Of a stretch of DNA of 64,000 nt, positions 29,042 through 40,723 are shown in pieces. The position numbers and the translations under genes were made by a program. Origin of the DNA: Chthoniobacteraceae bacterium (GTDB lineage Bacteria > Verrucomicrobiota > Verrucomicrobiia > Chthoniobacterales > Chthoniobacteraceae). The notes beneath the pieces were generated by a model that searched no databases, was not told where the DNA came from, and saw nothing but the letters and a program-made list of their open reading frames with translations. The stretch's first letter is position 1. Every line of letters starts with the position of its first letter. The DNA is taken from NCBI GenBank assembly GCA_028293625.1, contig JAQGOL010000042.1, forward strand, positions 1-64,000, in the 5' to 3' direction.

Positions 29042-29446
29042 ATGCCGTCTCCATCACGAGTCCTCACCAACGACTACAACGATTGCAAGCTGATCAAGCT
29101 CGATTTCGACGACCCGAAAAGCCCGCTTGTTGTTTTGCAGGAAGCCTACGCGCCAAGTGACCCAGTCAGCCGGATGCGCGTCTTCTATCTCCAGCACGAC
29201 GGATTCTGGATCGATGAAATCGCCCGCAGCACACTCCCCGAGCGCGAGATCGGCGAGATCGTTTTTGACACCCCCGCCGAAGCGCTCCGAGTCTTTTCCG
29301 GGCTTTTTGGAAAACCGCTTATCCGCGACTTGCCTGTCACCGAGAACGACGTGCGCGCCTATATGGCACGGGCGGGAAGTGGCTCTCCCAAAGAACTGTT
29401 TCGTGAATTTCTCGCCCGTTACCGTGCTTCAAAAAGCAAAGTCTAG
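29042..29446 (+). CDS. hypothetical protein, 134 aa
   Basis: A soluble 134-residue protein beginning MPSPSRVLTNDYNDCKLIKL. It alternates beta strands and helices and ends in a basic helix (LFREFLARYRASKSKV). No known motif is seen. ATG 29042 directly follows the intergenic region carrying a recurring inverted motif; the long frame upstream is a shadow of the SulP gene. It converges on the TolC-like gene, with stop codons overlapping by 4 bp. The short size and own promoter region suggest a separately regulated accessory protein. Confidence 0.7.
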   Translation: MPSPSRVLTNDYNDCKLIKLDFDDPKSPLVVLQEAYAPSDPVSRMRVFYLQHDGFWIDEIARSTLPEREIGEIVFDTPAEALRVFSGLFGKPLIRDLPVTENDVRAYMARAGSGSPKELFREFLARYRASKSKV

Positions 29447-30972
29447 CGCTCGTAACCGCCTCCTACCGCCCGGATCAGGTCGATTGTAGCGCTGTAACGC
29501 GTGTTCAGGGTCTGCACCTCGGCAAGTTCCGCGTTGAGGAGAACGCGCTGCGCATCGATGACTTCAAAATAGTTGATTGCCCCTTCCCGATAGCTTTTCT
29601 GGGCAATATCAAAAACGTGCCGCGCATTCTCGGCGGCACGCCCGCGGGCCTCGGCTTGAAGTGCACGCTGGCGCAGACCGCTTAATGCATTCTCAGCTTC
29701 CTTAAAAGCGTTGAGCGCCGCCTGTTGGTAAGCGGCAAGCGCCTGCTGCTCTCTGGCGCGCGCGGCATTGAGCCTGGCCGCGTTCCTGCCGCCTTCAAAG
29801 ATAGGAATGCTGATTCCGCCTGTGATAGACCAGACATGGCTTTGATCCTTAAAAAGTTCGGCCGAGTCCGCGCTTTCGAAGCCGTAGTTGGCGCCGACGT
29901 TGACAGTGGGAAAAAACTCGGCCTTCACAGACTTGATCCCCTCACCTTCGGCGGCAACACGGCGTTCTTCTTCAACGAGATCGGGACGCCGGGTCAGCAA
30001 TTGGGCCGGAATTGTGATGGGTACCGGGGGCGGCAAACCGTGATCCAGCGGATGTTCGGCGAGATGGAAGCCGCTTGCGGGCTGCCCGCAAAGAACCGCC
30101 ACGGCATTCTCGGATTCAGCTCGCCGTTGAGTGACGTCAGCCAACTCCGCTTCGGCATTTGCCAGCTCGAACCTGGCGCGGAAAACTTCAATGTCGCCGG
30201 CCACCCCGGCTTTGAGCCGGGCCTCCTGAATTTGAATCGCATCGGCTCGCAGCCGCAAGGTGCGGCGCAGCAGAGCCATTTGGGAGTCGAGCGCGCGCAA
30301 AGTAAAATAGCTCGCCGCCACCTGTGAGGTGAGACTCAGCTCCACGGCGCGCCGGTCCGCCTCGAAAGCCTGGGCCGTGGCACGCCCCTGGGCGTACGCA
30401 TGCCGGATGCGTCCAAAGAGGTCGACCTCGTAACCGAGGGAAAGCTGGGTTGAAAAATCGTTGGAACTATTTGTCAGCGCCTGCCCGGCAAACGAATCGG
30501 GTCCGCTGGCTCCGTTTCCGGCGGGAAAGATGCCGCTGCCTATAATGCGGGAACGAACGATTGGACCGGTGTTAGTGGTCCGCTGGCGGGTGGCATGCAA
30601 CGGAGCGCTCAATGTCGGATAAAAGCCGGCAGCAATCGTGCGCGCCTGTTCCCGGGCTTCCACCACCCGTGCCACGGACTGATAGAGATCTCGATTTCCC
30701 AACACCGCTTCCCGCATGAGTTTATCGAGCACCGGATCATGAAAAAGCTGCCACCAACGCCCCGTTTGATGATCATGAGCGGAGCCGCGAGTGACCTCCT
30801 TCCCTCCGGTCGCCGCTTTAAATCGGGCCGGGACCTCGATTGATTCGGCAGGCTTAACGTCCCGCCCCAATAGCGGTGACACCGTGATGCTCAGCAGGCC
30901 CGCGGCGATCGCAAGAGACTTCCATCGCAGTGGCGGCTTTAAATTGTCGATCCGAAGAATTGGCAGACTCAT
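29443..30972 (-). CDS. outer membrane efflux channel (TolC/NodT family)
   Basis: A 509-residue outer membrane factor of the NodT/OprM subgroup. Internal duplicated halves include LMREAVLGNRDLYQSVARVV and the end-segment YREGAINYFEVIDAQRVLL that caps such proteins. A hydrophobic N-terminal segment (about 17-32) acts as signal peptide; there is no lipobox cysteine. The ATG overlaps the HlyD-family gene stop (ATGA, 30969-30972). It forms the exit channel for the DHA2 exporter and adaptor of this operon, which is controlled by the TetR regulator at its head. Confidence 0.92.
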   Translation of the reverse strand: MSLPILRIDNLKPPLRWKSLAIAAGLLSITVSPLLGRDVKPAESIEVPARFKAATGGKEVTRGSAHDHQTGRWWQLFHDPVLDKLMREAVLGNRDLYQSVARVVEAREQARTIAAGFYPTLSAPLHATRQRTTNTGPIVRSRIIGSGIFPAGNGASGPDSFAGQALTNSSNDFSTQLSLGYEVDLFGRIRHAYAQGRATAQAFEADRRAVELSLTSQVAASYFTLRALDSQMALLRRTLRLRADAIQIQEARLKAGVAGDIEVFRARFELANAEAELADVTQRRAESENAVAVLCGQPASGFHLAEHPLDHGLPPPVPITIPAQLLTRRPDLVEEERRVAAEGEGIKSVKAEFFPTVNVGANYGFESADSAELFKDQSHVWSITGGISIPIFEGGRNAARLNAARAREQQALAAYQQAALNAFKEAENALSGLRQRALQAEARGRAAENARHVFDIAQKSYREGAINYFEVIDAQRVLLNAELAEVQTLNTRYSATIDLIRAVGGGYER

Positions 30973-32153
30973 TTGATGAGTACGTTGGCGATCGCTGAAA
31001 GCCCGGGCCGCAGCCGCTCCTCAAACCCACGGATCGAATCGCGATCAAATACGATTTTCACCGGAACGCGCTGCACGACTTTTGTAAAGTTGCCGGTGGC
31101 ATTGTCGGCCGGCAGCAACGCAAACTGCGCTCCGGTTGCCGGCGCGATGCCATCCACCTTTCCGGTGAAGTGATGTCCGTCCACGGCATCGACCGTGATC
31201 TCGACGCGCTGACCGGCACGCACGTTCCTGATTTGGGTCTCCTTAAAATTCGCGACGATCCAGTAGTCGCCGCCCACCACCGCAAAGAGCGCCTGGCCCA
31301 CCTGCACGCGATTGCCCGGCTCGACGTTCTTATTCCCAACCCGGCCATCCGAGGGGGCCACGATCTCACTGTACGAAAGTTCCCGCTCCGCGTCGCGCAC
31401 CCCCGCTTCCTGGACCAAAATCCTGGCATCAGCGGTGGCGATTTCCGCCTCGGCTGATTCCACGGCGGCGGCACTGGCGTCGCTGCGTGCTTGCGCGGCC
31501 GTCAGATCGGCTTTTGCGCCAATCAGCGCCGCACCGGAGGCCTGCGCATTGCTTTTCGTCGTATCGACTTCCGCTTTGGAAATGGCGTGTGCATCGCTTT
31601 GAAAAAGACGCTGGTTGCGCTCGAAATTCACATTGGCCATTTGGAGCTGCGCTTCAATGAGCCGCACCTGAGCCTCCGAAGAGGCGGCCTGCGCCGCGGC
31701 CTGAACGGTCTGCGCTTTGGCTTGATTTAATGCAGCCTGGGCATGCCGCGCACCCGCTTTTTCCTGGGCAAGCGCCGCCCTGGCTTTTTGAAGCGAAATC
31801 TGAGAGGCGAGCGGATCGATGCGCGCAAGCGCCTGGCCGGCTTTGACCGCTTCATTTTCACTCACGAGCACCTCAATGACAGAGCCGGCTCCCCGGGAAC
31901 TGACCTGATAAATGTGACCGTTGATATAAGCGTCGTCGGTCACCTCAAATGTCATGGAGTGATGAATGAAATTCGCGAGCCAAATGCCGGTTCCCGCAAT
32001 GGCAACCGTCGCACCGAGCCAAAAAACAAGGCCGCGCTTTTTGCGAGGCAACCCGGTTTCCCGCGGAACGGCATTGGCACGATGACTGGACGGGAGCGAC
32101 GGCGCGGCGGTGGGATCCTCGACGGTTTTGTCGGAAGAGGTGTGGTTGGACAT
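30969..32153 (-). CDS. HlyD/EmrA-type adaptor protein
   Basis: A 394-residue membrane fusion protein: a cytoplasmic N-terminus, one TM segment (about 42-62, LVFWLGATVAIAGTGIWLAN), the lipoyl halves around a long Ala-rich coiled-coil hairpin (about 110-250), and the beta-barrel end with SEIVAPSDGRVGNKNVEPGN. It couples the 14-TM exporter encoded upstream (24-bp gap) to the outer membrane channel encoded downstream (4-bp overlap). This is the EmrA-like part of a complete EmrAB-TolC-type system. Confidence 0.92.
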   Translation of the reverse strand: MSNHTSSDKTVEDPTAAPSLPSSHRANAVPRETGLPRKKRGLVFWLGATVAIAGTGIWLANFIHHSMTFEVTDDAYINGHIYQVSSRGAGSVIEVLVSENEAVKAGQALARIDPLASQISLQKARAALAQEKAGARHAQAALNQAKAQTVQAAAQAASSEAQVRLIEAQLQMANVNFERNQRLFQSDAHAISKAEVDTTKSNAQASGAALIGAKADLTAAQARSDASAAAVESAEAEIATADARILVQEAGVRDAERELSYSEIVAPSDGRVGNKNVEPGNRVQVGQALFAVVGGDYWIVANFKETQIRNVRAGQRVEITVDAVDGHHFTGKVDGIAPATGAQFALLPADNATGNFTKVVQRVPVKIVFDRDSIRGFEERLRPGLSAIANVLIK

Positions 32154-32177
32154 GAAAAATGAGAGAAAAACGCGGGC

Positions 32178-33815
32178 CTAATGGGCGGCTGCGGCGGCAT
32201 CTTCCGCGGCGCGGTTCGTTTTGCCGCCGAGCAATAAAATCAGTGGAAGCGACACTATAAAAAGCACGGCGACATAGAAAAAAATGTCCTCGTAGGAGAG
32301 GAGCGTGGCCTGGCCATTGACCGTCCGATCGATCAAGCCAAGCGCCCGATGCCGGGCGGCAATCGCATCGCCCCCATGGCTGGTAAAGCCGGCCGTCAAT
32401 GCCTGTAGCCGATCAATCGAGGGAACTCGAAAGGCCGTGATCTTCTCCACAAGGATCGCGCGATGCAAAGCCTCCCGGCGGACCAGCATCGTGGTAATGA
32501 GGGCGATGCCTATGCTGCTGCCGAGCTGGCGTGTCAGGCTGTAAAAACCGGCTCCCGCGGCGATGTCCTTTTTCGCCAACGGTCCAAGCGTTGCAATGCT
32601 GAGCGGCATAAAAATCAGCACTCCGCCAAGTCCCCGGCAGACCAGCGGCCAGAAGAGCTGATCGACGCCCGTGCTCGGATTCAGATCCATCAAAATCATG
32701 CCGGTGGCTGCTGTCAGGAGTGCTCCGGCACAGATCACCAGGCGGGGCGAAAAGCGGCTTGCCACCTTTCCATAAAGAATCATCGCCACGGCGGAGGCGA
32801 TCGCGCCCGGCACTAGCAACAGGCCGCTTTGCAGCGCTGTATAATGCAGGAAATCCTGAACAAACACCGGTACGGCAAACATGATGCCGTAAAGGCCCAT
32901 TCCGAGAATCACTGAATAGAGACTGCCGCCGATCATCGATGGATAACGCAGGACGCGGAGATCAACGGCAGGGTGCTCAGTGGTTAATTCCCGCCAGATA
33001 AACAGCCCGATGCTCACGACGCTTGCAATGGCCATGCCCGTGATAAATCGCGAAGCAAACCAGTCGTCCTGCTGGCCCTCTTCAAGCAGAATCTGGAACG
33101 ACGCCAGCCCGACTGCCAGCAGGCCGATTCCGCTCCAGTCGACCGTGCCCGCGCGGTTCATCTTTGTCTTGTCATCGGCCGGAAGCAAAATCAGACACAT
33201 CACCACCGCAATGATCCCGATCGGCAGGTTGATGAAAAATATCCAGCGCCAGCCGAGGTTGTCCGTGAGCCAGCCTCCAATCACCGGGCCCGCCGCGGGT
33301 CCGCCGATGACACCGAGGCCAAATATGGCTTGGGCCAGGGGCCGCTCTTCATTGGGGAAAGCTTCAAAGATGAGCGATTGCGCCTTGGCCAGAAGTCCGC
33401 CCCCGGCGAGTCCCTGCAAGACCCGCGCGAAAATGAGCGCGCTGAGATTTGTGGACATCCCACAAAGCATCGAGGCAAGCGTGAATCCTATCAGGGAAAA
33501 GACAAAGTAGTTCTTTTTGCCGAAGCGATACCCGAGCCACGCGGAAAGCGGAATGATGACCACATTGGCGCACGCGTAACTGGTTGAAACCCAGCCCGCC
33601 TCCGAAAGGGTGGCGCCCAGGTTGCCTCGAATATCGGGAAGGGCCACATTGGTAATCACGGTATCGATTACCTCCAGGATCGCGCCAAGGGATGCCGCAA
33701 ACACGATTGCCCACTTGAGGATCCCCCGCTCCAGCAACCTGGCAGCAAAGGGAGAAAGCAAGGCGGGATCCGCGCCATACAGGCCGCTCTGCAGGGCCGC
33801 TGATTTTCCGCTCAT
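32178..33815 (-). CDS. DHA2-family (EmrB/QacA) 14-TM drug:proton antiporter
   Basis: A 545-residue MFS exporter. The DHA2 motifs are visible: LPDIRGNLGATLSEAGWVST in TM1-2, the loop motif WLGYRFGKKNYF, and motif C-like LGVIGGPAAGPVIGGWL. About 14 TM segments fit the length. The ATG overlaps the TetR stop (ATGA, 33812-33815), so repressor and exporter are cotranslated and autoregulation sets both. Likely substrates are hydrophobic compounds, but none can be named. Confidence 0.93.
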   Translation of the reverse strand: MSGKSAALQSGLYGADPALLSPFAARLLERGILKWAIVFAASLGAILEVIDTVITNVALPDIRGNLGATLSEAGWVSTSYACANVVIIPLSAWLGYRFGKKNYFVFSLIGFTLASMLCGMSTNLSALIFARVLQGLAGGGLLAKAQSLIFEAFPNEERPLAQAIFGLGVIGGPAAGPVIGGWLTDNLGWRWIFFINLPIGIIAVVMCLILLPADDKTKMNRAGTVDWSGIGLLAVGLASFQILLEEGQQDDWFASRFITGMAIASVVSIGLFIWRELTTEHPAVDLRVLRYPSMIGGSLYSVILGMGLYGIMFAVPVFVQDFLHYTALQSGLLLVPGAIASAVAMILYGKVASRFSPRLVICAGALLTAATGMILMDLNPSTGVDQLFWPLVCRGLGGVLIFMPLSIATLGPLAKKDIAAGAGFYSLTRQLGSSIGIALITTMLVRREALHRAILVEKITAFRVPSIDRLQALTAGFTSHGGDAIAARHRALGLIDRTVNGQATLLSYEDIFFYVAVLFIVSLPLILLLGGKTNRAAEDAAAAAH

Positions 33816-34483
33816 GAATGCTTTCGTCTTCCGGCATTCCCGGATTCCAACGGTTGCTTAAGGATCGGCGCTCCAATCGCCTGCATAACCATCGCCACGC
33901 AGGCATCCAGATAACTCCTGCTGCTATACTCCCGAGGCAAAGGCATCGCCCCGCGCATCGCACCCATAAAAACAAGGGCGCTAAGCTGATCAGCTGCAAT
34001 CGCCGCATCGATCTCTTTGTTCATCTCCCCGCTTTCCTGCGCCGCATGGAGCGCCTTGATGATCCGTTTCCGCTCCGGGAGAAAAATCGCGTGGATCACT
34101 TTTAATTCGTGTTCCTGAAAATGCTGAATCTCGCCAATCAGCACCCGCAGCAGTGCCAGATGTTTATTCGCGCGCTTGAAGCCGCTTGCCACATACTCCT
34201 CAATTACTCCGATCAGCCCCCGGGCGCCGCCGTTCACCTCTTCCGCTTCGGAAAACGTGGCCGGCGCCTCGCCAAAAACGCGCTCAAGGACGGAAGCCAG
34301 GAGGTTTTGTTTATTCTTAAAAAGCCGGAAAAGCGTCACCTCATTGACTCCTGCGACGTGGGCGATCTCGCGAGTCGTGGCGGCCCGCAGCCCGTCCCTG
34401 GCGAACACCTCGGCGGCCGCGTCAAGGAGCCGTTCACGGGTTGGAATCGTGCCGGGGAGGGATGGGGTGGAAGGGCTCGGCAT
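33812..34483 (-). CDS. TetR/AcrR-family transcriptional regulator
   Basis: A 223-residue repressor. The TetR helix-turn-helix lies at about residues 15-62 (TRERLLDAAAEVFARDGLRA, then TTREIAHVAGVNEVTLFRLF). The all-helical C-terminal ligand domain has a TetR_C-like end. It heads the operon for a DHA2 exporter, an EmrA-like adaptor and an outer membrane channel. A perfect 7-bp inverted repeat starts 4 bp upstream of its ATG, so it most likely represses its own operon until an exported compound binds. Confidence 0.93.
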   Translation of the reverse strand: MPSPSTPSLPGTIPTRERLLDAAAEVFARDGLRAATTREIAHVAGVNEVTLFRLFKNKQNLLASVLERVFGEAPATFSEAEEVNGGARGLIGVIEEYVASGFKRANKHLALLRVLIGEIQHFQEHELKVIHAIFLPERKRIIKALHAAQESGEMNKEIDAAIAADQLSALVFMGAMRGAMPLPREYSSRSYLDACVAMVMQAIGAPILKQPLESGNAGRRKHS

Positions 34484-34619: not shown

Positions 34620-35948
34620 TCACTTCATTTCGCGGACGCGGCGCAGTGAAGATTCCGGCGGCAGCATCGAGCCGATGACTTTCGGCACAGCGATCCGCTG
34701 CGAGAGATAGATGCCGGAGTGCCCGCTGGCGCGGTAGGCGAGAAAGCAGGCAATCGCGAGATAGACTGCATGCGTTGCGCCGAAAAGCTCAATACCCATA
34801 AGCGTGCAGGCCAGCGGCGTATTGGTTGCACCCGCAAAGATCGCCACAAATCCCAAAGCCGCAAAAAGGTCGGGTGGAGCGTGCAACAAACCCGCGAGCG
34901 CGTTGCCGAGTGCGGCGCCGATGAAAAAGAGGGGCGTCACTTCGCCGCCCTTGAACCCCGCGCTTAATGTGACGGCGGTGAAAGCGATCTTCCACAACCA
35001 GCTCCACGCATGGATTTCCGGCGAGGTAAAGAATGAGACAATGGTGATCGCATTTGGATCAGGCGACCAAACACCAAGTCCCAGGTAATCGGGCGTCCCG
35101 GCCAATAGAAAGAGCCCAATGACGAGCACGCCGCCAAGAGCGGGTCGGAAAGGGGCAAACGGGATGACTCTTTTAAAGAGCGCGGTGAGCGAATGCGAGA
35201 GCTCAGCGAAGAAGGTGCTTGCAAGGCCGAATGCGATCGAGGCGATGAGGACCTTTAGCAGCAACCACGGTTCAAGATGGAAAAAGGCCGCCGGCGGACT
35301 CGTGCTCGTCATATAGCCAATCGTGTAGTGCGTATGTCCGATTCCCCACGCATGGCAGGTCCAGTCGCCCACGATTCCGGCAACCAAACATGGAATAAGG
35401 GCCTCGTATTGGATGCGTCCGATCACCAGAACTTCCAATGCGAATACCGCCCCGGCGAGCGGCGTTCCAAATACCGCCCCAAAGCCTGCTGCGATGCCGC
35501 CCATCAGCATGACCCGCAGATATGGGTCTCCCAGTTTGAACATTCGGCAAATGCCGCCGGCGATGCTTCCCCCCATTTGCACGGCGGTTCCTTCCCTGCC
35601 CGCGGAGCCGCCGAAGAGATGGGTAACCAGGGTGCCAAAGAGAATCAGCGGCGCCATCCGCCGCGGCACGCCGCCGCCGGGTTGGTGGATCTGATCGATG
35701 ATCAGATTGTTTCCTCCTTCAACGGGCCGGCCCACCCAGTGGTAAATCAAGCCTACTGCAAGACCCGCAACGGGAAGCAAATAAAGGAGCCAAGGGCGAT
35801 TGAAACGCGCTGCAATTACCGCATCGAGGCTCCAAAGGAAAAACGCGCAGGCCGATCCCACGGCCACGGCCATCGGAACAATCAAGCCCGACCACGTTAA
35901 AGCGGCGCATGCCTGCCGCATGCCACTAGTGACTCTTTTGGCGATCAT
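34620..35948 (-). CDS. CLC-family antiporter of the fluoride type (CLC-F)
   Basis: A 442-residue CLC transporter with about ten or more TM segments. Chloride CLCs carry GSGIP, GREGP and GxFxP. Here the first is replaced by GGNNL (78-82), the second by GREGT (117-121) with the gating Glu119 kept, and the third by GGEVTP (334-339). These changes are those described for the fluoride/proton antiporter clade CLC-F. A sequence matching the fluoride riboswitch precedes the gene, which supports fluoride efflux as its role. It is monocistronic. Confidence 0.88.
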
Positions 35949-36019: not shown

Positions 36020-36044
36020 GATTCTACTTCGGAAAGTAGGAATC
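36020..36044 (-). terminator. expression-platform hairpin of the fluoride riboswitch
   Basis: On the minus strand GATTCCTACTT, loop TCCG, AAGTAGAATC forms a 10-bp stem with one bulged C. It uses the 3' conserved end (ATTCCTAC) of the aptamer, so aptamer and hairpin exclude each other. That is how a fluoride-responsive switch would work. A T-run is absent, so transcriptional or translational mode is open. Confidence 0.6.
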
Positions 36045-36102
36045 ATCAGCCATGACTTATGGCGGTTTCCCGAGCAAGCCCGGGCGGCAGGAATCCATTG
36101 CC
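36036..36102 (-). ncRNA. fluoride riboswitch (crcB motif) aptamer
   Basis: Read on the minus strand: P1 GGCA, loop ATGGATTCC, TGCC; a linker with an optional CCCG/CGGG hairpin; then AAACC, P3 GCCAT-AAGTC-ATGGC, then TGATGATTCCTAC. These match the consensus GGnnATGG-nnCC, AACCGCY, GCTGATGA-nnCCTAC of the crcB motif in order and spacing. The pseudoknot between GGATT in the first loop and ATTCC near the 3' end has one U-U mismatch. The aptamer ends about 88 nt before the CLC-F start codon. Confidence 0.85.
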
Positions 36103-36203: not shown

Positions 36204-37007
36204 TTATTTTGTGTGAAGCGGTTTGATAAGCCCGGCGGCCATCTCGCGGATCTGCTTCACATCATCGATTGAAACCGGGGTCTGTTTTTCGCTCCCGATG
36301 AGTGGCTTGAATCGGATGATGCCTTTTTGCATGTCGACCACCGCCGGATACGCCTTCAGCTTTTCATCCATTTTGGATAACTGCGTTTCAAAGTAATCAA
36401 GCATCACCGGCTGATGCAGCAGCTGCGCCTCCTCTACGGAATAGTGCTGGGAAACCAGGGTGGCCAACGCTTCCATGCCGCGCAACCAACCTCCAAGGCT
36501 GATGAAGTGAGCAAGCGGCTCGCTTTTTATTTCAATCATCGCCTTTTTGAGGTCGGCGTTGACTCCCGACCATTCTTCGCGGACCGCCGCCCAATCTTTC
36601 CTGCGAGCTCGCTCAACGATACTGCTTTCACGCGAGACAACCGATTTCTCCACGCCCAACGCACGTGCCAGCTTCAGCGCGGCATCACCGACATCCCGCA
36701 GTTCCGGCGCGTCCTCCGCGGCGGCGGCGAGAAAACCTTCCGCGATGACAAGCCCAAGCGAAAGCGCGATCTGAGGTGGATTCCCGGCCGTCGGCACCCT
36801 CGCAAGCTCGGGATGCAATACAGGTTTCCAATTGGAATCACGAAAAGCATCCAGGGTGCGGAATATCTCGCCTGAAACGGGAGCCAGCACCCCATCGATG
36901 CGTTGAACCTGAGGAGGAAGATCGATCTTATCCAGCTGCTCCGCCACGGCAGGACCGGCCAATGCGACGGAAGCTAACAAGGCGATCTTAAGAAAACCGG
37001 TGGGCAT
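36204..37007 (-). CDS. periplasmic hypothetical protein, 267 aa
   Basis: A signal peptide (LKIALLASVALAGPAVA) precedes a largely helical mature protein without cysteines. Motif-like parts are QRIDGVLAPVSGEIFRTLDA near the N-terminus and a helical C-terminus. It starts ahead of the riboswitch and CLC-F gene but ends about 100 bp before the aptamer, so it is a separate unit. The DUF1275 gene upstream ends 60 bp before its ATG. I do not recognise the family; secretion and helical fold are all that can be said. Confidence 0.75.
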   Translation of the reverse strand: MPTGFLKIALLASVALAGPAVAEQLDKIDLPPQVQRIDGVLAPVSGEIFRTLDAFRDSNWKPVLHPELARVPTAGNPPQIALSLGLVIAEGFLAAAAEDAPELRDVGDAALKLARALGVEKSVVSRESSIVERARRKDWAAVREEWSGVNADLKKAMIEIKSEPLAHFISLGGWLRGMEALATLVSQHYSVEEAQLLHQPVMLDYFETQLSKMDEKLKAYPAVVDMQKGIIRFKPLIGSEKQTPVSIDDVKQIREMAAGLIKPLHTK

Positions 37008-37833: not shown

Positions 37834-38451
37834 TCAGCGTTGCGCGCCGCGCGCGGCTTTTCCGATCGCGGCAATGAGCAGTGCGGGGTCTTGTTTTAAC
37901 CCGGTCTGTTGAAAAGCGATTTCGCCATCCGCATTAAGAAGCGTGACAAGGTTTGTGTGTGCGAATTGCCCGCGGGCGTCCTCGGCGTAGTTCACGCCGA
38001 GCAGCGCGGCAAGTTCCCTGACGTCATCAGATTCCGCCCGCAGCAGCGTCCAGCGCTTGCGGCCAAGCTGGCGCTTTTCGCGAAACGCAGCGAGTTCAGC
38101 GGACGTATCGCGCCTCGAGTCGATGCTCACGAGCAGAAAATCAACCTTTCCAAGCACCTCAGCCGGGAGAGCCTGCTCGATCGCCTTGAGCTCACTGATG
38201 AGAATCGGACAGGCATATTCGCAGTGGGAAAAAAACATCGCGACGATCTGTGGACGGCCACGAAGCGCGCCGAGTTTGATCTTTCTGCCGACATCGGAGG
38301 TCCACGTCGAGTCGAGCAAATAGAGTGATTTGTCAGTCGGATTTCCAAGATCGAGTGCAACGCGGCAACATGGTGGAAGCAGTGCGGTTTTGGGTTCCAC
38401 GCCTTCACAGACACAGGTTGCCAGAAGCAGGACGCCAAGAAGTGCTTTCAT
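37834..38451 (-). CDS. SCO1/SenC-family copper chaperone
   Basis: A 205-residue thioredoxin-fold protein. After a signal peptide comes the copper motif HCEYACP with Cys77 and Cys81 (CxxxC), and the third ligand His165 in FAHTNL. SCO proteins deliver copper to, or reduce, copper sites of oxidases and copper enzymes in the periplasm. Its ATG overlaps the stop of the FGE-like gene (ATGA, 38448-38451) directly after nirK, so it likely serves maturation of the copper nitrite reductase. The upstream Met at 38466 is possible but breaks the overlap pattern. Confidence 0.9.
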   Translation of the reverse strand: MKALLGVLLLATCVCEGVEPKTALLPPCCRVALDLGNPTDKSLYLLDSTWTSDVGRKIKLGALRGRPQIVAMFFSHCEYACPILISELKAIEQALPAEVLGKVDFLLVSIDSRRDTSAELAAFREKRQLGRKRWTLLRAESDDVRELAALLGVNYAEDARGQFAHTNLVTLLNADGEIAFQQTGLKQDPALLIAAIGKAARGAQR

Positions 38452-39221
38452 AAATCCTTGGCGCAACGGAACCCGAGGTTATGGACGGTGTAGCCGGCTC
38501 GCAGACTGCTTCGAAAACCAAAGCGCATGAAAGCCGCGAAGTTGCCAGGGTCGCTTGCGCCGAGCGAGCCGGCACCGCAAAAAAGCTGGCGCTCCAGCCC
38601 AGTGTCGCCGCGTGCGTCGCCGGTCACAAGCGCGCTATTGAAGTCGCTTGTCCATTCCCAGATGAGACCATGAAGATCGCGGACGCCAAAGAAATTCGCC
38701 CGCCCGGTGCCGGCGTCCGGCAGGAGGGCGGGCGACGGCGTTCCATACCAAAGCGTGACCGCCTGCTGAAACTCCTTTTCCGTGGATCCATCCACGACGG
38801 TAAAACCCGCGCCAGCCGCGGCTTCCCATTCCGCCGTGGTTGGAAGTCGTTTTCCTTGGGAAGCGGCGAAGGCTTTGGCGGCAAACCACGAAACATTGGT
38901 GACCGGTTGTTCGGGACGCGCGTTGCCAGGCTCGAGATCCCCGGCCCAGTGTGTCAGATAACGTTCGTCGGCGAACAGGCCCTTTACCTTCGAGCGTTGC
39001 CACTTGGGGTTCTCGCGCACGAAAACGAGGAACTCGCCGTTGGTGACGGGACGCACGTCGAGTTGAAAAGCGGCGACGGGGAGGTCCCGGGGAGCCTTCT
39101 CCGCGCGAAACAGCGGGCGGTAGATCGTCGCTGGAATCGCCGCCATGCCCGGCTCGGATCCGCGCGCCGCGCAAAACCCGGCAAGGATCGCAATGATCGT
39201 CAGGGTGAGGCGGCGGGTCAT
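38448..39221 (-). CDS. FGE/SUMF1-family (formylglycine-generating enzyme-like) exported protein
   Basis: A 257-residue protein: signal peptide ([15 protein letters not shown]) and a FGE-sulfatase fold, with [60 protein letters not shown] and the closing GFRCAKDL. The two-cysteine copper site of true formylglycine-generating enzymes is not obvious, since only isolated Cys remain (FCGAGS and FRCA), so another role is likely. It is joined to nirK and SCO by ATGA overlaps on both sides. ATG 39221 is the overlap-consistent start. A part in assembly of the nitrite reductase or its heme domain is an inference. Confidence 0.88.
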
Positions 39222-40723
39222 TGGTTGACGGATTCGGCGTGAATTTTTTGCACCTCCTCCACGGTCACGATGTCGCCCGTATTGCCCCACGCGTTTCGGA
39301 CAAACGTGAGGACATGCGCGATCTGCTCATCGGTGAGCAGCACCGGCGGCATCACGCCGTTGTATTTTACTCCGTTCACAACCATTTCACCCGATTGCCC
39401 TTTGATCACCCCGTGAATGGCGCGCGCTTTGTCTGCCATCAGAAAGTCGGATTTCGCCAGGGGCGGAAAGACGCCGGGCAACCCCTGCCCCTCCGCCTGA
39501 TGGCATGCAAAGCACGTCTGCGCATAAATGCGTTTCCCTTTCTCTATGAAGATCTCTTTGCCCATCGCCGCGATCTTCGGTTCGTCCGCGATGACTTTCT
39601 TCATCGCAGATTGAAGCGTTGCCACCCGCGAATTGGTGCCGCCGGGCAATGCGTAGTCACCGAGATAGGTCGCATCGACTTCCTTCCCCGAATAAACAAG
39701 CAGGTCTTCCGGTCCCTCCACTTTCAGCATTCCGAGCGCGCCCTTGTTGAACGCGCGAAACAGCGCGTGATCCACGAGCACAAAGGTGCCGGGGACATTC
39801 AGCTTGAATTCCACAATGGCGGAACCGCCCGCCGGCACGACGGTCGTCTGCACATTTTCCTGCGAGAGCTTCATGCCTCCCTCCTGATACACACGATCGA
39901 ATATCTCGCCGATTATATGGAAGGAGGAGGTCAGATTAGGCCCCGCATTTCCCACAAACAGGCGCACACGCTCGCCGACGTTTGCTTTCAGCGCGTTGTC
40001 ACCGACCAGCGAGCCAACAGCGCCGTTAAACACGACGTAGCTTGGTTTCTCGTCTACCGCCTTTTCCATATCAAAGGGCTGCAACCCTTCTTCCCCGAAT
40101 TTTCCTTTCGTATAAAATTCGCTCTGCATCACATAGAATTCCTTATCCACGAGCGGCAGGCCATCCTTTGGCTCGACGAGAATCAGCCCGTACATGCCGT
40201 TTCCAACATGCATCCCCACCGGCGCCGTCGCGCAATGGTAAACGAAAAGTCCGGGATTGAGCGCCCTGAAGGAAAACTGCGAGCTATGTCCAGGCGCGGT
40301 GAAGGAGGAGGTCGCGCCGCCGCCCGGTCCGGTCACCGCGTGAAGATCGATGTTATGCGGCATCTTCGAAGTTGGATGATTGCCGAGGTGAAATTCCACC
40401 AGATCACCCTCGCGCACCCGGATGAACAAACCAGGCACCTCGCCCCCAAACGTCCAAAACAAATAATCGACCCCATCCGCCATGCGTTTGACCAGCTCGC
40501 GCACCTCAAGGTTCACCACGACTTTCGTCGCGTGTTTACGCTCGATTGGCGGCGGCACATTCGGCGCCGGAGTGAGGACCGCCTTCTCCTCGCCGACTAT
40601 TTCCGGATCACTCCCCTTTGGTGCCGACAGCGGTGGCGTTGAAAGGACGGAAGGTTCCGCGGCGAAAAGCACCGGCATAAAGAGGCCAAATGCGACTGCG
40701 GAGAAGAGAAGGGTCCGTTTCAT
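39218..40723 (-). CDS. nirK: copper nitrite reductase with fused cytochrome c domain
   Basis: A 501-residue periplasmic enzyme that reduces nitrite to nitric oxide. Signal peptide about 1-21, two cupredoxin domains, and a C-terminal cytochrome c. Type 1 copper ligands: His123, Cys164, His172, Met177. Type 2 ligands: His128, His163, His319. The catalytic Asp126 (NIDLH) and His269 (FHIIGE) are kept. The heme site is CFACH at 404-408, with a likely axial Met458 (NGVMPP). The fused heme allows direct electron entry. The FGE-like and SCO genes follow with ATGA overlaps. No nitric oxide reductase is in the window. Confidence 0.95.

Follow-up and report, generated by a model that had tools for sequence, protein, structure and literature searches.

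Riboswitch-controlled CLC antiporters were reportedly described in 2012 by Stockbridge. Translational fluoride riboswitches are known from P. syringae and B. pseudomallei, and in transcriptional fluoride riboswitches the re-use of the pseudoknot strand in OFF structures is also known (PMC13273304). Another precedent is the B12 riboswitch upstream of ppe2 in M. tuberculosis, which is followed by a short upstream ORF (uORF) whose stop codon overlaps the next start codon as AUGA: expression requires translation of the uORF, and proceeds mainly by termination-reinitiation (PMC11260477). More generally, of 14 tested gene pairs with an ATGA or TGATG overlap, 13 proved to be strictly coupled (PMC6728339). 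We found no fluoride riboswitch that acts through a coupled leader ORF in the open-licence literature that we searched. Here we describe a locus within a 64,000-nucleotide stretch of DNA from a Chthoniobacteraceae bacterium (‘the window’) that, within that literature, looks like an undescribed variant of the fluoride-riboswitch expression platform, with a probably coupled leader ORF placed before clcF. As in the translational fluoride riboswitches (RF01734), the pseudoknot strand can be swapped into an alternative hairpin ahead of a fluoride exporter gene; the difference is that the masked start codon here is that of a short, overlapping leader ORF, and not the exporter's own. The locus shares with the ppe2 system a riboswitch, a short uORF and the AUGA overlap; on the other hand, ligand, aptamer and phylum differ, and a mechanism that was established there by experiment is one that we infer here.

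The aptamer lies on the minus strand, as do all of the features of this locus. The RF01734 (crcB motif) covariance model is matched end to end (model positions 1-64) at 36111-36030, scoring 43.2 bits (gathering score, 34; E = 1.2e-8 in the window), and this is the sole RF01734 match that a whole-genome covariance-model search returned from the 6.83-Mb genome. Two weak Rfam matches near the aptamer (P15 and P24) fall far under the gathering score and were set aside as chance. A first-pass annotation had read the motif's elements in order on this strand and had named the RF01734 score as the check on that reading; the score lies above the gathering threshold, and every element is found where it had been placed: GGCA-ATGGATTCC-TGCC at 36102-36086, AACC at 36067-36064, a 5-bp P3 (GCCAT/ATGGC, 36063-36059 with 36053-36049) and, after P3, GCTGATGATTCCTAC at 36050-36036. 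P2, P3 and the pseudoknot are all present, together with the conserved AUGG, AACC and GAUGA.UCCUAC, and the gene downstream is a CLC-F type fluoride-resistance gene. The structure, pseudoknot included, is also upheld by covariation: across 48 aligned relatives, the aptamer helices contain 43 double-change cells versus 11.3 in shuffles, and 91.5% of the cells of the named structure stay paired.

The annotation had also pointed to a single U-U mismatch in the pseudoknot. The mismatch is real, and lies at the fourth pair between the 5' strand GGATTC (36096-36091) and GATTCC (36044-36039), but no state is commoner in the relatives: this pair is unpaired in 37 of the 48, being U-U in 29, and is G-C in 11. 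We therefore regard the U-U as normal and not as a defect, and we rejected it as a sign of decay. Two features that the annotation left unmentioned are the expression platform, to which we return below, and a 6-bp accessory hairpin between P2 and P3 (CCCGGG-CTTG-CTCGGG, 36084-36069), which is an insertion in the Rfam alignment. A hairpin occupies that place in about 40 of the 48 CLC-F-associated aptamers, and is absent from those of Geobacter and Bacteroidota. At five loci elsewhere in the collection (L007, L009, L017, L018, L037), a second fluoride riboswitch, divergently oriented, lies upstream of clcF on the opposite (minus) strand.

The gene that follows, clcF (34620-35948), encodes 442 residues that match PF00654 (E = 1.1e-68). 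Its best solved relative is 6D0J, the Enterococcus casseliflavus CLC fluoride/proton antiporter (E = 2.9e-57, the match spanning residues 24-419), versus 2e-4 at best for canonical ClcA. The CLC-F type is marked by the signatures GNNLI/GMGLI, GREGT/V and GEVTP (PMC11139923). All three occur in the clcF product, as GNNLI (residue 79), GREGT (117) and GEVTP (335), and in this it resembles 6D0J; the two differ in that the filter here is of the Asn type (GNNLI), whereas the E. casseliflavus protein has Met at that place. Signatures and closest solved relative together support a CLC-F type protein with a predicted role in fluoride export. The fluoride-type CLC residues claimed in the first-pass annotation are thus borne out, and the two lines that it drew towards fluoride resistance both hold at the level of sequence: the data support its reading of a fluoride riboswitch before a CLC-F exporter gene, each of a known kind. 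CLC-F and CrcB/Fluc exporters are nearly mutually exclusive, and RF01734 lies upstream of about 30% of CLC-Fs in general (PMC11139923). In agreement with the former, we found no CrcB/Fluc (PF02537) in the whole genome; as for the latter, 52 of the 80 nearest CLC relatives in the public genome collection have RF01734 just upstream.

Directly downstream of clcF on the same strand (29443-34483), an EmrAB-type efflux operon comprises a TetR regulator, an MFS pump, an HlyD adaptor and a further ORF (509 aa) that looks like a putative outer-membrane factor. Upstream of clcF, again on the minus strand (37834-40723), what looks like a denitrification module contains a multicopper oxidase-cytochrome c fusion (NirK-like), an FGE-domain protein (NirV-like), SCO1 and then a DUF1275 gene. 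In two Methylobacterium loci, an nhaA-I RNA (RF03057; L009:4833-4889 and L013:4808-4864) sits a few hundred bases downstream of a riboswitch-controlled clcF.

How might the aptamer communicate with clcF? The aptamer's 3' strand, GATGATTCCTACTT, is complementary to AAGTAGAATCAT, which begins a few bases downstream; the two strands are predicted to fold into an anti-aptamer (OFF) hairpin, ATGATTCCTACTTTCCGAAGTAGAATCAT (36046-36018), that joins the aptamer 3' strand to the start region of a leader ORF and is mutually exclusive with the pseudoknot. The duplex is worth -12.5 kcal/mol versus -5.5 in shuffles, only 1 in 500 of which was as good, and the hairpin is present in the minimum free energy (MFE) fold of the window's leader. 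Equivalent pairing was found at P<=0.05 in 50 of 60 riboswitch-clcF loci, and the partner arm differs by group: in Alphaproteobacteria it is the Shine-Dalgarno sequence and start codon of clcF (e.g., L007, AAGGGGGAGTCATG), and the Geobacter relatives have a terminator. Alternative OFF structures, then, draw on the same strand as closes the pseudoknot.

In the window, the AUG within the OFF hairpin (36019) opens a 24-codon leader ORF (36019-35945), the UGA of which overlaps the clcF AUG as AUGA (35948-35945), an overlap characteristic of termination-reinitiation pairs. This AUG is out of frame with clcF, and since the open frame of clcF extends no more than 15 nt upstream of its ATG, clcF cannot begin at the sequestered codon. 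The Shine-Dalgarno sequence of the leader AUG is weak (-1.9 kcal/mol); that of clcF, a GGAGG within the leader ORF (35961-35957), is strong (anti-Shine-Dalgarno duplex, -9.5 kcal/mol). That the leader's start site can initiate is argued by the near-identical AAGTAGAATCATG, which is the clcF start itself in one relative (L145, from genome G042). When the leaders of the window and L002 are compared, the S, Q and P codons show changes at third positions only, which we take as a hint that the leader is translated.

Locking the aptamer strand raises the predicted unpaired fraction of the leader start region from 0.18 to 0.39, and that of the clcF AUG from 0.30 to 0.67. A local hairpin that would mask the clcF ribosome-binding site is attractive in the fold, but the occlusion of this site does not exceed that in shuffles (unpaired, 0.46 vs 0.47), and so we did not count its masking as evidence. 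Nor do we draw support from the fold of the leader as a whole, because it is not better than shuffles (z = -0.76).

Upstream of the aptamer there is a predicted promoter, with an exact TTGACA at -35 (36139-36134) and, after a 17-nt spacer, TCTTAT at -10 (36116-36111). A generic sigma-70 scan did not list this site, because position 2 of its -10 element is not A. In the window, as in most relatives, a TTGAC stands 35-38 nt upstream of the aptamer's first GG, and this conserved spacing suggests that transcripts start a few bases ahead of the aptamer. A 267-aa ORF with no Pfam or NCBIfam match (36204-37007) ends about 60 bases upstream of the promoter.

We consider it probable that these elements constitute a translational platform in which fluoride gates translation of the leader ORF, and clcF is coupled to the leader by termination-reinitiation. 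Transcription would begin just upstream of the aptamer. Without fluoride, the aptamer 3' strand (GAUGAUUCCUACUU) would pair with AAGUAGAAUCAU, burying the initiation region of the 24-codon leader; fluoride, if bound, would keep that strand in the pseudoknot and leave the leader AUG free. Ribosomes would then translate the leader as far as the UGA that overlaps the clcF AUG, terminate, and re-initiate at that point, aided by the internal GGAGG; the outcome would be increased production of the CLC-F antiporter, and expulsion of fluoride. Because the OFF hairpin hides the start of the leader, and the stop of the leader overlaps the start of clcF, activation of the transporter gene is probably indirect, through ribosomes that pass from one frame to the other.

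The same layout recurs among relatives. At 12 loci from Verrucomicrobiota, clcF is preceded by a leader ORF of 17-82 codons, the stop codon of which always overlaps the clcF AUG; the overlap is AUGA in 11 loci (the window and ten further) and UGAUG in L116. Besides that of the window, the leaders comprise 17 codons (L211), 19 codons (L119/L182, L120/L181, L197, L208), 22 codons (L002), 30 codons (L116, and L003 from Chthoniobacter flavus, with which L082 reads the same), 46 codons (L170/L183, in which the AUG lies just past the OFF hairpin and not inside it), 79 codons (L059/L205) and 82 codons (L198). The leader sequences are unrelated across the 12 loci, and the idea of a conserved leader peptide was rejected. 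With random linkers of the same composition, the chance of each single overlap is 0.01-0.29. For all 12, it would be ~1e-11 if they were independent, a value that is too strong because several of the loci are related; for five selected loci it is ~1e-6, these five having been chosen after the data were seen. The linkers range from 50 to 245 nt and are all 2 modulo 3, but such an overlap requires this, and it is therefore not a separate line of evidence.

Other Verrucomicrobiota clcF loci are arranged differently. In five groups, of which six loci were scored, the sequestered AUG is the start of clcF itself (L145/L184, L025/L115, L042/L050/L067, L192, L199), and in L178/L180 there is a terminator instead; among the Verrucomicrobiota clcF loci that we read, none had an unlinked clcF start. 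In nearly all of the crcB loci read in the same bacterial family (f17), the AUG directly starts crcB; the exceptions are L187 and L190, where crcB begins some 290 nt after a variant aptamer (GATGAGGCC). We also observed that in relatives from Nitrospirillum and Azospirillum (L041, L043, L047, L048, L051), clcF has either an in-frame N-terminal extension or an AUGA-coupled short ORF, as if flipped by indels: a GTG is in frame in L047, an in-frame ATG stands at nearly the same place in L051, and in L041, L043 and L048 the GTG is AUGA-coupled. We lean towards the view that the coupled loci represent a recurrent class of riboswitch in Verrucomicrobiota that is specific to clcF, as opposed to crcB: a ligand-gated platform for translational coupling, the leader of which is free in sequence and is conserved solely in ending on the start codon of clcF.

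Several other explanations deserve consideration. Control might be exerted on transcription, with either translation of the leader or the OFF hairpin determining whether the polymerase reads through or terminates (intrinsically or via Rho), and the leader ORF serving mainly to shield the RNA from Rho. In relatives from Geobacter (L057, L064, L072), as well as in L178/L180, the same 3' strand does give rise to genuine intrinsic terminators, and exposure to Rho was also considered for the ppe2 uORF of M. tuberculosis (PMC11260477). In the window, however, the OFF hairpin runs into GCTTATCTCT and not into the T run of an intrinsic terminator, and no terminator-like site was found between 36046 and 35949, which led us to reject a terminator platform here; Rho, for its part, leaves the overlap between stop codon and clcF AUG unexplained in 12 of 12 loci. 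We judge such transcriptional control to be unlikely. A programmed frameshift that fuses the leader to clcF, to yield an N-terminally extended transporter, strikes us as highly improbable: the coupled loci share no slippery sequence that we could see by eye, their leader sequences are unrelated, and a start codon is placed exactly at the overlap, with a Shine-Dalgarno sequence in the window. These points outweigh, in our estimation, the observations that a frameshifted fusion also occurs in M. tuberculosis (PMC11260477), and that in six loci (L145, L042, L050, L067, L192, L199) the sequestered AUG is in the clcF frame and extends the N terminus.

Given that the clcF Shine-Dalgarno sequence is strong, that of the leader is weak, and the occlusion of the clcF site does not rise above chance, ribosomes could initiate at clcF independently and so circumvent the switch. 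Taken to its limit, the leader ORF would be incidental: clcF would initiate independently at its own GGAGG, with the riboswitch acting through longer-range structure. The state of the aptamer has no clear predicted link to the clcF Shine-Dalgarno sequence (unpaired, 0.25 when free versus 0.30 when locked), whereas the leader start opens, as does the clcF AUG; furthermore, the overlap recurs in the twelve loci, several of which lack a useful clcF Shine-Dalgarno sequence. An incidental leader is in our view quite doubtful, and coupling of clcF to a fluoride-gated leader is the reading that we prefer.

An aptamer of this class in front of an exporter gene is textbook material; the platform that joins them is not. 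Automated annotation would take such loci for long untranslated leaders or for plain translational switches. If the proposed coupling holds, the leader-ORF platform would offer a simple natural system for understanding how a riboswitch can work via termination-reinitiation. It also raises the question of why antiporter genes use a leader ORF, and channel genes in the same bacterial family do not.
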